NCBI RefSeq assembly: GCF_026278245.1
Contig: NZ_CP111079.1
Coordinates: forward strand, 1,738,501-1,802,500
Reading direction: 5' to 3'
Length of the DNA: 64,000 nucleotides
Origin: Pontibacter kalidii
GTDB taxonomy: Bacteria > Bacteroidota > Bacteroidia > Cytophagales > Hymenobacteraceae
Numbering within the stretch: position 1 is the stretch's first letter; each line of letters begins with the position of its first letter. The translations under genes were made by a program, and so were the position numbers. Shown one piece after another: positions 22,195 to 58,850 of the stretch. The notes under the pieces were generated by a model. The model worked only from the letters and a program-made list of their open reading frames with translations. It was not told the DNA's origin and made no database searches.

Positions 22195-22268
22195 GGTCTG
22201 GTAGTTCAGTTGGTTAGAATGCCGCCCTGTCACGGCGGAGGTCGCGGGTTCGAGTCCCGTCCAGACCG
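22195..22268 (+). tRNA. tRNA-Asp (GUC), copy 1
   Basis: Cloverleaf of 74 bases: acceptor GGTCTGG with CCAGACC, anticodon loop with GTC, T-arm GGTTCGAGTCC, discriminator G. The 3' CCA is not encoded. The downstream spacer folds into two hairpins, the first using the tRNA's own ACCG end (ACCGCAG with CTGCGGT). Confidence 0.98.
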
Positions 22269-22328
22269 CAGGTAAAACTGCGGTAAACATAAGCAGCGCA
22301 AGAGGCGCTGCAAAGCATCAAAATTATT

Positions 22329-22402
22329 GGTCTGGTAGTTCAGTTGGTTAGAATGCCGCCCTGTCACGGCGGAGGTCGCGGGTTCGAGTCCCGTCCAGAC
22401 CG
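22329..22402 (+). tRNA. tRNA-Asp (GUC), copy 2
   Basis: Identical in sequence to copy 1. Its spacer again begins with ACCGCAG paired to CTGCGGT, then an imperfect AAAGGAGC/GCTCTTT stem. Confidence 0.98.
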
Positions 22403-22461
22403 CAGAATTTAAACTGCGGTTTTAGTAAAGGAGCAAAAGGCTCTTTGTTTACAAAAGTATT

Positions 22462-22535
22462 GGTCTGGTAGTTCAGTTGGTTAGAATGCCGCCCTGTCAC
22501 GGCGGAGGTCGCGGGTTCGAGTCCCGTCCAGACCG
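22462..22535 (+). tRNA. tRNA-Asp (GUC), copy 3
   Basis: Identical to copies 1 and 2. It is followed directly by a terminator, so the three tRNAs form one transcription unit. Confidence 0.98.
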
Positions 22536-45658: not shown

Positions 45659-46267
45659 TTACTTTTTCTGATGGCGCTCTTGTAGCACTGACACCACATC
45701 CTTTAGCTCTAGCCCGGTGGCAGCTAGCAGCACCAGCAAGTGGTACAGCAGATCAGCCGCTTCGCCTTTCATGGTGTCCTGCTTGCCGGCCACGGCGTCA
45801 ATCACTGTTTCTACGGCTTCTTCCCCTACTTTCTGGGCAATTTTGTTTACGCCTTTCTCAAAAAGGAAATTAGTGTAAGAACCTTCCACCGGATTAGCCT
45901 TGCGTTCCTGAATCACCTGTTCCAGCTGCGCGATAAACTGAATGGCCCTGGCTCTGTTAGCTGTTTCTTCCTCGCCAAAGCAACTGGTGCTGCCGGTGTG
46001 GCAGGTAGGGCCAGTTGGTGTTACTTTGATGAGCAGCGAATCGGCATCGCAATCCTGGGCAATGCTCACCACCTGCAAGGTATGGCCGGATGTTTCGCCT
46101 TTGGTCCAGAGGCGGTTTTTGGAACGGGAGAAGAAAGTAACCAGCCCCTGCTGCCTGGTTTTCTCCAGTGCTTCCTGGTTCATGTAGCCCAGCATCAGCA
46201 CCTGGCCGGTTTGGTTGTCCTGTATCACGGCGGGTATCAAGCCACCTGCTTTCTCGAAATCTAACAT
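45659..46267 (-). CDS. hisIE: phosphoribosyl-AMP cyclohydrolase / phosphoribosyl-ATP pyrophosphatase
   Basis: Fused enzyme of 202 residues for steps two and three of histidine synthesis. The HisI half (~1-105) shows MLGYMNQEAL, the zinc-binding DCDADSLL and HTGSTSCF. The HisE half (~110-202) shows the helical EKGVNKIAQKVGEEAVETVIDA and the DLLYHLLVLL helix. It is the last gene of the hisH-A-F-IE run, 92 bp after hisF; that gap holds tandem repeats. Confidence 0.96.
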   Translation of the reverse strand: MLDFEKAGGLIPAVIQDNQTGQVLMLGYMNQEALEKTRQQGLVTFFSRSKNRLWTKGETSGHTLQVVSIAQDCDADSLLIKVTPTGPTCHTGSTSCFGEEETANRARAIQFIAQLEQVIQERKANPVEGSYTNFLFEKGVNKIAQKVGEEAVETVIDAVAGKQDTMKGEAADLLYHLLVLLAATGLELKDVVSVLQERHQKK

Positions 46268-46359
46268 AGTTAGAGAGTTAAAAAGTTAGAGAGTTAAAGA
46301 GTTTAGGAGTTAGAGAAGGAGTTAGCCATTCACTCAGTCACTCATCCGCTCAATCAAAA
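46268..46359. repeat. tandem AGTTAGAG / CACTCA repeats between hisF and hisIE
   Basis: The left half has several copies of units like AGTTAGAGAGTTAAA, and the right half has CACTCA/TCACTCAT units. It is low-complexity, non-coding and lies inside the his operon. No terminator structure is apparent. Confidence 0.6.
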
Positions 46360-47118
46360 TTAAATTCGTACCGCTACGCCCTGCTCTTTCAGGTACTGCT
46401 TCAGGTCCGGAATGCCCAGCTCGCGAAAGTGGAACAAACTGGCAGCCAGGGCAGCATCCGCATCGGCTTTCAGGAAAGCGTCAGCAAAATGCTCCATACT
46501 TCCGGCCCCACCGGAGGCAATCACGGGCACAGAAACGGCTTTGGCGACTTCTCTGGTAATACCCAGCGCGAAGCCTGCCTTGGTGCCGTCGTTGTTCATA
46601 CTTGTCAGCAGGATCTCACCGGCACCCAACTCCACCACCCGCTTTGCCCAATCCACTGTTTTGTGTTCAGTTTCTATAGTGCCGGCGCGGGTGTACACTT
46701 TCCAGCCGGTGACTTCAGTATACTTGGTATCGATGGCCACGGTAACGCACTGGCTGCCAAAGTGCTTGGCCAGCTCTTCTACCAACTGAGGGCTTTTAAT
46801 GGCAGAGGAGTTTACAGATACTTTATCGGCCCCGTTCTGCAGCAACACCTCCACATCGGCCACAGCGCTAATGCCACCACCCACGGTAAAGGGAATGTCG
46901 ATGTGCCGGGCAATGTCGCGCACCAGCTCGGCAAAGGTTTTACGACCTTCGTTGGTAGCGGTGATGTCCAGGAACACGAGCTCGTCGGCTCCCTGCCCGG
47001 CATACCACTTCGCCAGCTCCACAGGGTCACCGGCGTCGCGGATGTTTTCGAACTGCACCCCTTTCACGCAGCGGCCGTTCTTGATATCGAGGCAAGGTAT
47101 AATTCGCTTGGTTAACAT
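46360..47118 (-). CDS. hisF: imidazole glycerol phosphate synthase, cyclase subunit
   Basis: TIM-barrel half of the HisF-HisH enzyme, 252 residues, turning PRFAR and ammonia into IGP and AICAR. The start [16 protein letters not shown] with the catalytic Asp (CLDIK) is diagnostic; DITATNEGR and the second Asp ([12 protein letters not shown]) are also in place. It overlaps hisA by 7 nt, showing translational coupling. Confidence 0.98.
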
Positions 47119-47834
47119 AAGAATCGCACTAAATCTTTTAACTGAATGGTACCTTCGTATATGGCTTTCCCGATGATGGCTCCTTTCACGCCTATCTCCT
47201 GCAGTTGCTCCAGGTCCTCTACAGTAGTAACGCCGCCGCTTGCAATGATACCGGCTTCCGGTAAGGTGAGCTTCAGGTGGCGGTATGTATTGAGCGATGG
47301 GCCCTGCAATTTGCCGTCTTTGCTCACGTCAGTACAGATAAATAGCTTCGCACCTGTCTGTACGTAGCCGGAAATAAAGTCCTGCAGCGGGTATTTGCTC
47401 TCTTCGGTCCAGGCGGAGATGGCAATGTTGGTACCTTTAAAATCTGCCCCAATGATGATCTTCTCGGCGCCATATTTCAAAAGCCAGCTTTTCACGGTCT
47501 CCGGTTCGCGCACGGCAATGCTTCCGGCTGTGATTTGAGCAGCGCCGGCGTCGAACGCCTGCCTCACCGCCTCATCCGACTGCAAGCCGCCGCCAAAGTC
47601 TATTGTAAGGTTCGTACTGGCCGCTATACTTTCCAGCACCGCCAGGTTAACCGGTTTCTTGGCTCGCGCACCGTCTAGGTCTACCAGGTGCAGGCGCTTG
47701 ATGCCGTTGGCTTCGAATCGTTTGGCTACCTCCAGCGGGTTGCTGTCGTAGGTGGTCTGCTGCGCGAAATCGCCTTCGGTCAGGCGCACGCATTGGCCGC
47801 CGATTATGTCTATCGCTGGGATGATCTCCATCAT
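47112..47834 (-). CDS. hisA: phosphoribosylformimino-AICAR-phosphate isomerase
   Basis: TIM-barrel isomerase of 240 residues that makes PRFAR from Pro[19 protein letters not shown] carries the catalytic Asp, and phosphate loops are at FGGGLQ and ASGGV. The start is MM: the first ATG overlaps the hisH stop (ATGATG containing TGA), and either Met may be used. Neighbours hisH and hisF are both overlapping. Confidence 0.97.
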
Positions 47835-48412
47835 AGGGCAAGGAAGTTTTTAAGTATCTGTGAACCGGCAGGCCCGCTTTTCTCGGGGTGAAACTGCGCG
47901 GCGTAGAAGTTTTTATACTGTAAAGCAGCCGAAAAAGGCTCCGGATAAGAGGTCTGTGCGATAGTATAGGTACTTACCGGCACGTAATAGCTGTGCACAT
48001 AATACACGTACTCTTTCTCCTGCAGCCCCCCAAACAGCGGCGACTCAAGTTGTTCCAGCTGGTTCCAGCCCATGTGCGGCACTTTCAGGTCGGTATCGAA
48101 ATGCTTTACCGGCAGCGGAATGATGTTGAGCAGCTCGGTATTGCCTTCTTCGGAGTGCTGGCAGAGCAGCTGCATGCCCAGGCAAACGCCAAAGAACGGC
48201 TGCTCCAATGTTGGCAAAAGCTTATCGAGGTTACGAGCCTTAAGCTGCGCCATAGCCGAAGCCGCCTGCCCTACCCCCGGGAAAATCACTTTATCCGCAG
48301 CCTTGATGGTTTCGGCATCAGCGCTCAGCGTGGCCTGCACGCCCAGCCGCTCCAGTGCAAACTGCACCGACTGCACGTTTCCGGCCTTGTAATCAACTAT
48401 AACCAGGTTCAT
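47831..48412 (-). CDS. hisH: imidazole glycerol phosphate synthase, glutaminase subunit
   Basis: Class-I glutamine amidotransferase of 193 residues that feeds ammonia to HisF. The nucleophile Cys is in GVCLGMQLL, and His/Glu of the triad are in QFHPEKSG. The start VIVDYKAGNVQSV is the usual HisH beginning. It is the first structural gene of this his segment. A His-rich leader ORF and a perfect hairpin terminator lie upstream, consistent with attenuation control. Confidence 0.97.
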   Translation of the reverse strand: MNLVIVDYKAGNVQSVQFALERLGVQATLSADAETIKAADKVIFPGVGQAASAMAQLKARNLDKLLPTLEQPFFGVCLGMQLLCQHSEEGNTELLNIIPLPVKHFDTDLKVPHMGWNQLEQLESPLFGGLQEKEYVYYVHSYYVPVSTYTIAQTSYPEPFSAALQYKNFYAAQFHPEKSGPAGSQILKNFLAL

Positions 48413-48494: not shown

Positions 48495-48532
48495 AAACAA
48501 AAAAGCCTGACTCTGGTCGGAGTCAGGCTTTT
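48495..48532 (-). terminator. his attenuator terminator
   Basis: Perfect 13-base arms AAAAGCCTGACTC (48501-48513) and GAGTCAGGCTTTT (48520-48532) with a six-base loop. On the minus strand it ends in TTTTTTG. It stands between the His leader ORF and hisH, with no other gene for it to terminate. Confidence 0.85.
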
Positions 48533-48554
48533 GGATGTATAGGTTAATATACGT

Positions 48555-48635
48555 TTAGCAAATCCATAGGCTAGCGGCTCCGAAACTGTTGTTTCGTGCA
48601 TGATGATGGTGGATATGAGCCATGTTGCCTTTCAT
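48555..48635 (-). CDS. histidine leader peptide
   Basis: Predicted 26-residue ORF, too short for routine gene calling. Residues 7-12 read H-I-H-H-H-H, giving five His codons in six positions; a Cys codon precedes the TAA. The stop lies 22 nt before the terminator stem. TCGGAG in codons 18-20 (fwd complement 48578-48583) can pair with CTCCGA of the terminator loop and 5' arm (48517-48522), a possible six-base antiterminator. A ribosome stalled on scarce His-tRNA would leave that segment free. The His codons, position and terminator together argue for attenuation of hisH-A-F-IE. Confidence 0.8.
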   Translation of the reverse strand: MKGNMAHIHHHHARNNSFGAASLWIC

Positions 48636-48640
48636 TGCCA

Positions 48641-48648
48641 CAAATATA
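48641..48648 (-). promoter_or_regulatory. candidate -7 element of the his leader transcript
   Basis: Reads TATATTTG on the minus strand, an exact TAnnTTTG match. It ends only five bases before the leader ATG, so if used the transcript would be nearly leaderless. The -33 site reads TGG, not TTG. Confidence 0.4.
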
Positions 48649-48746: not shown

Positions 48747-50795
48747 ATGAAAAAGATACTAATACTGGCTGGTGTGTTTGCCGTGAGCTTTGCGCAGGCA
48801 CAACAGCGCATGACACCCGAACTACTCTGGAAACTGGGCCGGGTTTCTGCCGAAACGGTAACACCAGACGGCAAGGCGGTGATATATGGTGTTACGCACA
48901 TCAACATGGAGGAAAATAGTGGTGAACGCAACCTCTACGCTATTCCAGTTTCCGGCGGACAACCCACGCAGCTGACTTCTACCAAAGGCGGCGAAAGCGT
49001 GGTGCATATCGATAAGGCCAGCGGTACTATCGTTTACCTGCACAAGGGCCAGTTGTGGCAGCTAAACGGCGGAAAAGGCGAGCCAAAGCAGCTGACAAGT
49101 GTGGAAGGCGGCCTGAGCAACGTGCGTTTCTCCCCCGACGGAAAACACCTACTCTTCTCCCGCGAAGTAGAAGTAAAGGAGGTACACAGCACCGATATTT
49201 ACCCGGAGCTGCAAAAATCTAATGCGTACGTGTACGATGACCTGAACTACCGCCACTGGGATACCTGGGAAGACGGTAAGTTTCAGCATGTTTTCTTCGC
49301 GCCTTACCAGGACGGCAAAGTTGGCACTCCCGTAGACATCATGAAAGGAGAGCCTTATGACACGCCACAGATGCCTTTTGGCGGCAAGGAAGACATGATC
49401 TGGAGCCCGGACAGCAAATCCATACTTTACGTGAGCAAGAAGAAGTATGGCAAAGACTACGCCGTGAGCACCAACACCGATATCTACCGCTACGATGTCT
49501 CCACCGGCAAAACAACGAATCTTACAGAAGGCAACCTTGGTTACGACACCCACCCCACCTACAGTGCCGACGGCTCTAAACTGGCCTGGTTGGCGATGGA
49601 CGAAGAGGGAAACGAAGCCGACCAGAACGAGCTGATCATACTTGATACCAAGACCGGTAAGAAGTATAACCTGACCAAGGATTGGGACGAGACGATCAAC
49701 TCTTTTGAGTGGAGCCACGACGGCAGCAAAATCTGGCTCGTAGCGCCTACTAAGGGCACGATCCAGGTGTTCGAGGTTCCACTCCCGAAAAACCTCGACA
49801 AGTTTGCCGCTAAAAGTATAAAGCAGGTTACCAAAGGACAGTTCGACGTGAACGGCATCGTGGGGCAGGCTGGTAGTAACCTGATCGTGTCGCGCACCGA
49901 CATGAACCACGCGCCGGAGCTGTACCGCCTGGAGCCAAAATCCGGCAAGCTGACGCAACTCACCAAGGTGAATGACGAAATTTACAGCAAGCTTTCACTG
50001 AGCAAAGTAGAGCCACGCATCACCAAAGCCAGCGACGGCAAGGACCTGTTCTCGTGGGTGGTGTATCCGCCGGATTTCGACCCGAACAAAAAGTACCCTA
50101 CCCTGTTGTACTGCCAGGGCGGTCCGCAGTCGGCGCTAACGCAGTTTTACTCTTACCGCTGGAACCTTCAGTTGATGGCTGCACAGGGTTATATCGTGGT
50201 GGCGCCGAACCGCCGCGGCATGCCGGGCCATGGTGAGGAATGGAACCGCCAGATCAGCGGCGACTGGGGAGGCCAACCCATCCGCGACTACCTGGCCGCC
50301 ATTGACGATGTGGCCAAAGAGCCTTATGTAGACAAGGAAAGACTGGGTGCAGTAGGTGCCAGCTACGGCGGTTACTCTGTCTTCATGCTGGCTGGTCTGC
50401 ACGAGGGCCGCTTCAAAACTTTTATCGCCCACGACGGCCTGTTTGACATGCGTAGCTGGTATGGCACTACGGAAGAGATGTTCTTTGCCAACAACGAGCT
50501 GAAAGGCCCTTACTGGGATACCAAGTCGCCGCAGAGCTATAAGGAGTTCAACCCAAGCGAGTACGCTAACAAATGGGATACCCCGATCCTGATCGTGCAG
50601 GGCGGCCAGGACTTCCGGGTAGGTATTGAGCAAGGGCTGCAGGCGTTTCAGTTGGCGCAGCTCAAAGGCATCAAGAGCCGCCTGTTATACTTGCCGGAAG
50701 AAAACCACTGGGTACTCCAGCCGCAAAACGCGATTGTGTGGCAGCGCGAGTTCTTCAACTGGTTAGACGAGACGCTGAACAAAGAAGTAAACTAA
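48747..50795 (+). CDS. S9-family prolyl-oligopeptidase-type peptidase
   Basis: Secreted or periplasmic serine peptidase of 682 residues with a signal peptide (residues 1-18, ending AQAQ). A seven-bladed beta-propeller (about 30-400, with repeats such as NVRFSPDGKHLLFS and HPTYSADGSKLAWL) gates an alpha/beta-hydrolase domain. The catalytic Ser is in GASYGG (~539), Asp in GGQDFRVG (~620) and His in ENHWVL (~653). It probably trims peptides at the periplasm. It is the sole plus-strand gene between the split his and trp runs. Confidence 0.94.
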   Translation: MKKILILAGVFAVSFAQAQQRMTPELLWKLGRVSAETVTPDGKAVIYGVTHINMEENSGERNLYAIPVSGGQPTQLTSTKGGESVVHIDKASGTIVYLHKGQLWQLNGGKGEPKQLTSVEGGLSNVRFSPDGKHLLFSREVEVKEVHSTDIYPELQKSNAYVYDDLNYRHWDTWEDGKFQHVFFAPYQDGKVGTPVDIMKGEPYDTPQMPFGGKEDMIWSPDSKSILYVSKKKYGKDYAVSTNTDIYRYDVSTGKTTNLTEGNLGYDTHPTYSADGSKLAWLAMDEEGNEADQNELIILDTKTGKKYNLTKDWDETINSFEWSHDGSKIWLVAPTKGTIQVFEVPLPKNLDKFAAKSIKQVTKGQFDVNGIVGQAGSNLIVSRTDMNHAPELYRLEPKSGKLTQLTKVNDEIYSKLSLSKVEPRITKASDGKDLFSWVVYPPDFDPNKKYPTLLYCQGGPQSALTQFYSYRWNLQLMAAQGYIVVAPNRRGMPGHGEEWNRQISGDWGGQPIRDYLAAIDDVAKEPYVDKERLGAVGASYGGYSVFMLAGLHEGRFKTFIAHDGLFDMRSWYGTTEEMFFANNELKGPYWDTKSPQSYKEFNPSEYANKWDTPILIVQGGQDFRVGIEQGLQAFQLAQLKGIKSRLLYLPEENHWVLQPQNAIVWQREFFNWLDETLNKEVN

Positions 50796-58700: not shown

Positions 58701-58736
58701 CAAAAAAGGCCTGCCATTCTAGTGAACAGCAGGCCT
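58701..58736 (-). terminator. trp attenuator terminator
   Basis: Arms AGGCCTGC (58707-58714) and GCAGGCCT (58729-58736) with a 14-base loop; the minus strand then runs into six Ts, 25 nt before the trpE ATG. GTGAACAGC (58722-58730) is complementary to the leader segment at 58791-58799. Confidence 0.88.
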
Positions 58737-58766: not shown

Positions 58767-58850
58767 TTACTTCATATGCGGCATAGAATGGCTGTTCACG
58801 ATACTTTGCGTAACGTGCCACCACCATGCCATATGAAGATTTTGAATCAT
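58767..58850 (-). CDS. tryptophan leader peptide (trpL-like)
   Basis: Predicted 27-residue ORF ending in TAA, with three consecutive Trp codons at positions 9-11 (Ala-Trp-Trp-Trp-His). It sits between the promoter and the terminator hairpin. RNA segments of the leader at 58784-58799 are complementary to the terminator: nine bases to 58722-58730 and nine to 58713-58721. A ribosome stalled at the Trp codons (58818-58826) leaves 58784-58799 free to form an antiterminator. One reaching the stop covers part of it and allows termination. This is the classical attenuator logic; no upstream Shine-Dalgarno is obvious. Confidence 0.87.
   Translation of the reverse strand: MIQNLHMAWWWHVTQSIVNSHSMPHMK

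Follow-up and report, generated by a model that had tools for sequence, protein, structure and literature searches.

How is the part of the histidine pathway that begins with hisH regulated in Pontibacter kalidii? In the window analysed here, a stretch of 64,000 nucleotides (contig NZ_CP111079.1, positions 1,738,501 to 1,802,500), the genes hisH-A-F-IE are preceded by a short His-rich ORF and a hairpin, which had been taken as a leader peptide and attenuator from the letters alone. A leader peptide and attenuator ahead of these genes is now strongly supported by sequence comparison, and we consider it very probable that ribosome-mediated transcription attenuation, governed by the supply of His-tRNA, controls hisHAF-IE. 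The features of the locus, in window coordinates, are:

48641..48648, minus strand: Bacteroidetes sigma-A -7 box TATATTTG, 5 nt ahead of the leader ATG
48555..48635, minus strand: leader ORF MKGNMAHIHHHHARNNSFGAASLWIC followed by a stop, 26 codons, aligned in 40 sequences
48600..48617, minus strand: regulatory His codons (codon 7 and codons 9-12)
48581..48596, minus strand: protector hairpin of strands 1 and 2, CGAAAC-AACA-GTTTCG, in which 48596-48591 pairs with 48586-48581
48578..48586, minus strand: antiterminator strand (strand 2) GTTTCGGAG, with its partner at 48517-48522 (6 bp in the window)
48562..48566, minus strand: inner antiterminator strand TGGAT, with its partner ATCCA at 48532-48536
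48501..48532, minus strand: predicted intrinsic terminator hairpin formed by strands 3 and 4, with a 13-bp stem in the window and a U-run to 48499 after it
47831..48412, minus strand: hisH, first gene of the putatively controlled operon, with its ATG at 48412
45659..47834, minus strand: hisA, hisF and hisIE, in the order hisH-hisA-hisF-hisIE

Direct reading of the sequence bore out the original prediction to the base: the 26-residue ORF has His at positions 7, 9, 10, 11 and 12, the hairpin 22 nt past its stop codon is perfect over 13 bp and is followed by a U-run, and the proposed six-base antiterminator exists, TCGGAG (48583-48578) being complementary to CTCCGA (48522-48517). The terminator arms, AAAAGCCTGACTC on the left (48532-48520) and GAGTCAGGCTTTT on the right (48513-48501), are paired at 13/13 positions. 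The claim that nothing structural lies between leader and hisH also holds, same-strand ORFs of at least 60 codons being absent there. The upstream neighbour at 48747, by appearance an S9-type peptidase gene, is divergent from the leader, which leaves the leader transcript as the only one, judging by the ORFs seen, that can run into this terminator. Gene names are from translations read by eye, except for hisG (Pfam PF01634) and phhA (PF00351). When the window was shuffled with dinucleotide composition kept, an ORF of 60 codons or fewer with five His in six codons turned up in 2 of 400 shuffles, and such an ORF together with a terminator in none of the 400; the real window has one, with a terminator. 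The minimum free energy of the leader is -42.4 kcal/mol, compared to -24.8 (sd 3.4) in 200 shuffles (z -5.1).

The HisH scan of genome contigs gave 521 loci, of which the best 80 were used. The element was found in 39 of the 50 closest hisH loci (38 Pontibacter and 1 Botryobacter, i.e. 39/39 of that group) and is absent from the other 11 (10 Rufibacter and 1 Sabulibacter), where hisH comes straight after the end of hisB. The remaining 30 of the best 80 loci show no His-run ORF (three His in seven residues) within the available part of the 500 nt before hisH. The 39 loci and the window make up the alignment of 40 sequences (A1) on which the RNA model R1 is based. Throughout this alignment the ORF is 23-27 codons long, the maximum number of His per six residues is five in 34 sequences, four in 5 and three in 1, and CGAA, TTTCGGAGC, AAAGCCTGACTCCG and five U are invariant (40/40). 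With R1, 50/50 genus genomes gave a match of at least 107.9 bits, a set that overlaps the 40 training sequences and is therefore not independent of them, and in each the match lies 60-823 nt upstream of hisH on the same strand; an extra ORF of 118-257 codons stands between terminator and hisH in loci L010, L024 and L026. It had been suggested that the region upstream of hisH be aligned, and that loss of the His codons or of the hairpin in close relatives would speak against an attenuator. Both are kept in 39/39 Pontibacter/Botryobacter loci and in 50/50 genus genomes, i.e. no such loss is seen inside the genus, while the 11 Rufibacter/Sabulibacter loci lack the element as a whole.

Of 154 family genomes from outside the genus, 35 gave an R1 match at E <=0.001, the best with 42.4 bits; this genome search ran with stricter filters, by which weak matches are lost. 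Three of the weak matches in other genera were examined: L148 proved to be a Tyr leader in front of phhA (see below), and L149 and L150 are like plain terminators. Four of the second R1 matches inside the genus were inspected (L144-L147). The second match in the P. kalidii genome itself, at C1:2242912 (29 bits), was rejected as a leader, being by eye a plain terminator after a transporter-like gene.

Two mutually exclusive pairings are kept across the alignment. The protector hairpin 1:2 has 6/6 pairs in 39 of the 40 sequences and five in one, and the terminator 3:4 keeps 12/12 aligned pairs in 36 sequences and loses one pair in four, whereas the antiterminator 2:3, with a 5-bp core in 40/40, varies in extent (9 bp in 12 sequences, 8 in 4, 7 in 11, 6 in 4 and 5 in 9); in the window a 6-bp core is joined by five inner pairs. 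Taken together, 1:2 and 3:4 are 99.3% paired, against 19-56% when the strands are slid along each other as a control. The left arm of the terminator is invariant in 40/40, whereas the right arm varies, with seven cells changed to G-U and four to a mismatch, which might be the expectation if the left arm has two partners. Covariation is weak support for the pairings. No compensatory double change occurs in any of the 18 pairs of 1:2 and 3:4 among the 40 sequences, so for these helices covariation adds nothing beyond invariance and the slide control. In 2:3, 86.4% of the cells are paired and three are changed on both sides, which was equalled by 4 of 500 shuffles, and in the inner antiterminator 87.4% of the cells are paired and 3/5 pairs are changed on both sides, in one sequence each. 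The stems AGGC/GCCU and GGCUC/GAGCC, found in the minimum free energy structure of the window, were discarded as general features, the second of them losing one U-A pair in 17/40 sequences by column counts.

The coding sequence carries a further trace of constraint. The wobble base of His codons 9-12 varies (C in 25 and T in 14 sequences for the first, then T in 35 and C in 5 three times over), and His is mostly retained; it gives way to Tyr in two sequences (L005, L011) and to Pro in two others (L028, L036), and the run is one codon shorter in L015 and one longer in L024. In the pairing strands, the codons CGA (Arg), TTC (Phe) and GGA (Gly) are identical in 40/40, although across 15 his/trp region genes CGA makes up 5% of Arg codons and GGA 10% of Gly codons. 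For hisH itself, only 1 of 103 invariant residues has a single codon in all 40. With codons frozen in the pairing strands and a varying wobble base in the His run, both the RNA and the peptide of the hisH leader seem to be under selection. His codons of the 40 leaders are mostly CAT (155/194), compared to 73% CAC in 15 nearby genes.

To our knowledge, Bacteroidota mRNAs do without Shine-Dalgarno sequences. A TAnnTTTG box precedes the leader in 37 of the 40 sequences, and the other three have TATCTTTA, which was added to the pattern by eye; the box stands 5 nt before the ATG in 36/40 and 7, 4, 4 and 8 nt before it in the others. In Flavobacterium psychrophilum the sigma-A box is placed at -12 to -5 of the transcription start site in the part of PMC9723704 available. 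This placement, together with the 5-nt spacing, leads to a predicted start at about 48636, one base before the ATG, and we infer that the mRNA from which the hisH leader is read is near-leaderless. Such mRNAs are a minority elsewhere in the phylum, as far as the available parts of the sources go: leaderless mRNAs make up 5.5% in F. psychrophilum (PMC9723704), and in Bacteroides thetaiotaomicron 5' UTRs shorter than 10 nt account for about 3.7% (PMC7366714).

The arrangement suggests the following model of attenuation. Transcription would begin at, or 1-2 bases from, the leader ATG. With charged His-tRNA at hand, the ribosome would pass the His codons and hairpin 1:2 (CGAARC/GUUUCG) would re-form behind it, hiding strand 2; the terminator 3:4, of 12-13 bp, could then form and RNA polymerase would stop before hisH. 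Under a shortage of His-tRNA, the ribosome would stall within the run of His codons, for the most part at codons 10-12, masking strand 1, which starts one codon past the last His codon. The freed strand 2 would pair with the left arm and loop of the terminator (2:3) while the right arm is still to be transcribed, leading to readthrough into hisH. A codon run for the end product (3-5 His in six residues), a predicted terminator and an antiterminator excluding that terminator are each present in 40/40 sequences.

Folding with a masked ribosome fits this model in part, under an assumed footprint of 14 nt upstream and 13 nt downstream of the A site that we chose ourselves and with the polymerase placed before the right arm; means are over the 40 sequences. 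The probability of 2:3 averages 0.17 with no ribosome (0.002 in the window), and with the A site at codons 10, 11 and 12 it is 0.81, 0.91 and 0.72 (window 0.86, 1.00 and 0.69). At His codon 9 the mean is 0.62 (window 0.41) and at codons 13 and 14 it is 0.74 and 0.65; codons 2-8 also give high values (0.85-0.87), and at codons 16-24 the probability is 0. The protector hairpin 1:2 has a probability of 0.01 at codon 11 and 0 at codon 12, and by codons 24-28 it has recovered to 0.72-0.98. Once the transcript is complete, 3:4 dominates at equilibrium for every ribosome position (0.91-0.99), so that antitermination, if it occurs, must be kinetic, as the switching of known attenuators is.

Other readings of the locus have to be weighed against attenuation. 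The ORF could encode a functional His-rich microprotein, e.g. a metal-binding one, with the hairpin only its terminator and hisH under a promoter of its own, and the C-terminal FGAxxLWI is indeed as conserved as the His run. The codons of the FGA part, however, are frozen at their wobble positions, which points to the RNA, two of the 40 ORFs (L022 and L039) stop after residue 23 and thus have no WI, and the place ahead of hisH is kept in all 50 genomes; we give this explanation hardly any credence. Still less can be said for a metal- or protein-responsive RNA element in which the His codons are incidental, for which we found no supporting point, no Rfam family reaching its gathering score at this locus. 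The distance from the His run to the protector strand is nearly fixed, and the genes downstream make histidine, both of which argue against such an element, and we consider it the least probable of all.

It is also conceivable, though very unlikely in our estimate, that a His-codon leader acts here via translation or Rho, i.e. through ribosome occupancy, and not by an intrinsic terminator switch. In this genus the leader found before hisG combines a His run with the lack of a visible U-tract terminator, so other mechanisms may exist in the genus. The hisH leader, in contrast, has a hairpin of 11-12 aligned pairs and at least five U in every one of the 40 sequences, and its variable distance from hisH, with a gene inserted in three loci, is a poor fit to direct control of hisH initiation. 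The terminator switch is thus the reading we prefer.

The hisG leader bears on the scope of the original prediction, according to which the regulation would concern an internal half of the pathway and not the usual hisG end. The first part stands, since hisH-A-F-IE has its probable attenuator; the second does not, since hisG has a His-rich leader of its own, which rules out a leaderless hisG. A second leader upstream of hisG had been thought worth looking for beyond the window, and there it was found, hisG lying at C1:1803243-1804091, 0.7-1.6 kb past the window end. Two further leaders thus belong to the histidine and tryptophan region, the first in genome and the second in window coordinates:

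C1:1804205-1804303, minus strand: His-rich leader MSIYDTYSAPLSQTTPVALAAHVHFHHIHHSS followed by a stop, before hisG, in the same genome beyond the window
58767-58850, minus strand: Trp leader MIQNLHMAWWWHVTQSIVNSHSMPHMK followed by a stop, before trpE, with a terminator at 58708-58735 and the antiterminator pairing GTGAACAGC/GCTGTTCAC

A His-rich ORF (at least four His in eight residues) precedes hisG in 30/30 genus loci examined (L083-L112), the genus having 50 genomes in the set. In 33 of the best 80 hisH loci hisG is present, and the ORF was found in 27/27 of those with at least 200 nt of upstream sequence, including eight from Rufibacter/Sabulibacter; the remaining six had too little upstream sequence. 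The stop codon of the hisG leader lies inside a hairpin, UUCCUC-N4-GAGGAA, in 30/30 genus loci, and a like hairpin occurs in 7 of the 8 Rufibacter/Sabulibacter hisG loci; by eye, no U-tract terminator follows it in the 30 genus loci. With hisG behind its own His-rich leader, the split pathway seems to be His-sensed in both its halves, by leaders of different design.

The two halves lie far apart in the genus. The distance between hisG and hisH is 12.6-18.3 kb in 49/49 genus genomes that carry the two on a single contig (in one more they are split over contigs), compared to 3.5-6.0 kb in 81/81 genomes of four other genera, which are part of the 154. In 12/12 genus intervals fetched, trpEGDCFBA-aroF stands between hisB and hisH and separates hisGDCB from hisHAF-IE, and an ORF with WWW lies ahead of trpE. 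Rufibacter has the hisG leader only and no hisH leader. As the hisH leader occurs in the genus with the split operon, the attenuator goes with the split, and the sequences make it look like something gained in this lineage in connection with operon fission. Genome G036 carries, in the stretch from aroF to the hisH leader, a leader-like ORF (MEHSSYPTPGSTGSGTVGLWLCQ, then a stop) and a terminator before an MgtE Mg transporter-like gene, and genome G034 has a similar place (L146 2129-2269; L147 2401-2529, the latter on the reverse strand).

R1 also matches Tyr-run leaders before phenylalanine 4-hydroxylase genes (phhA), e.g. MNLMNNAYYYYYYHQSRRFGVGCVCS followed by a stop. Of eight phhA regions given to the model, five matched, at 59.2, 56.0, 42.4, 32.5 and 29.4 bits, and three did not; the two weakest are carried largely by the terminator, and scores of up to 39 bits are seen for plain terminators elsewhere (L149). 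The phhA leader has the layout of the hisH leader, a AAAGCCTG..CAGGCTTTT terminator and, in three loci (L209-L211), the antiterminator GTTTYGGA/TCCRAAAC; it differs in having Tyr codons for His, and it is a putative attenuator too. When the coding parts were compared with hisH leaders, two of the three Tyr leaders beat all 500 shuffles and for the third 5/500 were as good, while in the controls 28/500 shuffles were as good for the trp leader and 425/500 for the hisG leader. A Tyr-rich ORF stands before phhA in 16 of 18 regions that we chose (10/10 from the genus, 3/3 from g5, 3/3 from g6 and 0/2 from g4; L194-L205 and L208-L211), as well as before phhA of P. kalidii itself (L212; phhA at C1:356555-357229). 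Among anchored g4 loci only 1/23 has one; seven more g4 loci are without an anchor. Within the genus, most Tyr leaders before phhA belong to a different type. By eye, terminators follow several of the Tyr-rich ORFs. The one review that came up on the subject names no such leader in its title or abstract opening. On sequence grounds it is possible that the hisH His leader and the phhA Tyr leader share ancestry. The further idea that both derive from one attenuator chassis, in which first-position changes between TAY and CAY codons switched the amino acid sensed and which was recruited by hisHAF-IE after its orphaning by trp, is speculative and in our estimate rather unlikely.

His-leader attenuation is textbook knowledge in Proteobacteria, where hisL has seven His codons in a row. 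The hisH leader is unlike hisL in standing at hisH and not at hisG, in its presumed near-leaderless mRNA, in its five His codons and in belonging to Bacteroidota. The enterobacterial hisL (RF00514, His_leader) nevertheless offers the same plan, with a His-codon peptide, exclusive antiterminator and terminator pairings and control by His-tRNA (in part after the available text of PMC9413887). The hisH leader is matched by RF00514 neither at the gathering score nor at E 1, the best weak match to an Rfam leader family is Thr_leader (20.7 bits compared to a gathering score of 55), and an Rfam T-box search gave no match at this leader. Elsewhere in the window, three tandem tRNA genes at 22195-22535 (plus strand) have identical Rfam scores.

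His-leader attenuators have been proposed in Firmicutes (PMC9413887, and PMC2965389 for hisS/hisZ, in their available parts), which, likened here by description, have a short ORF with a His run (three to five, PMC9413887) just before the attenuator, as the hisH leader does, yet belong to another phylum and other genes; separate origins of His leaders are proposed there too (same sources). Within Bacteroidota, the available part of a study of F. psychrophilum speaks of “strong clues” for leader-peptide attenuation before amino-acid biosynthesis operons, and its main text does not contain the word histidine (PMC9723704). A study of his genes in Bacteroidota, in the part available, mentions attenuation only for Salmonella and E. 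coli and does not use the word leader (PMC8305728). The hisG leaders of the genus and of other Bacteroidota resemble the hisH leader in having a His-run ORF, which ends about 100-130 nt before hisG, and differ from it in the hairpin at the stop codon, the missing visible U-tract and the lack of coding similarity. The hisH attenuator is absent from the literature titles and abstract openings listed, two of the lists showing 20 of 860 and 10 of 967 papers, a body to which subscription papers (e.g. Lopatovskaya et al. 2010) largely do not belong. The mechanism appears to be of a known kind and this instance of it new.

What we describe is a well-conserved, probable leader-peptide attenuator in Bacteroidota, for which the literature found has little on attenuation, and it may serve as a handle on transcription-translation coupling in this phylum. 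Its presence in one genus and its absence from the remaining genera searched in the family, taken with the operon split, make its gain placeable on the tree, and this gain may be tied to genome rearrangement. If the hisH and phhA leaders do share one chassis, attenuators would be retargetable modules, the gain of this one having a place on the tree.
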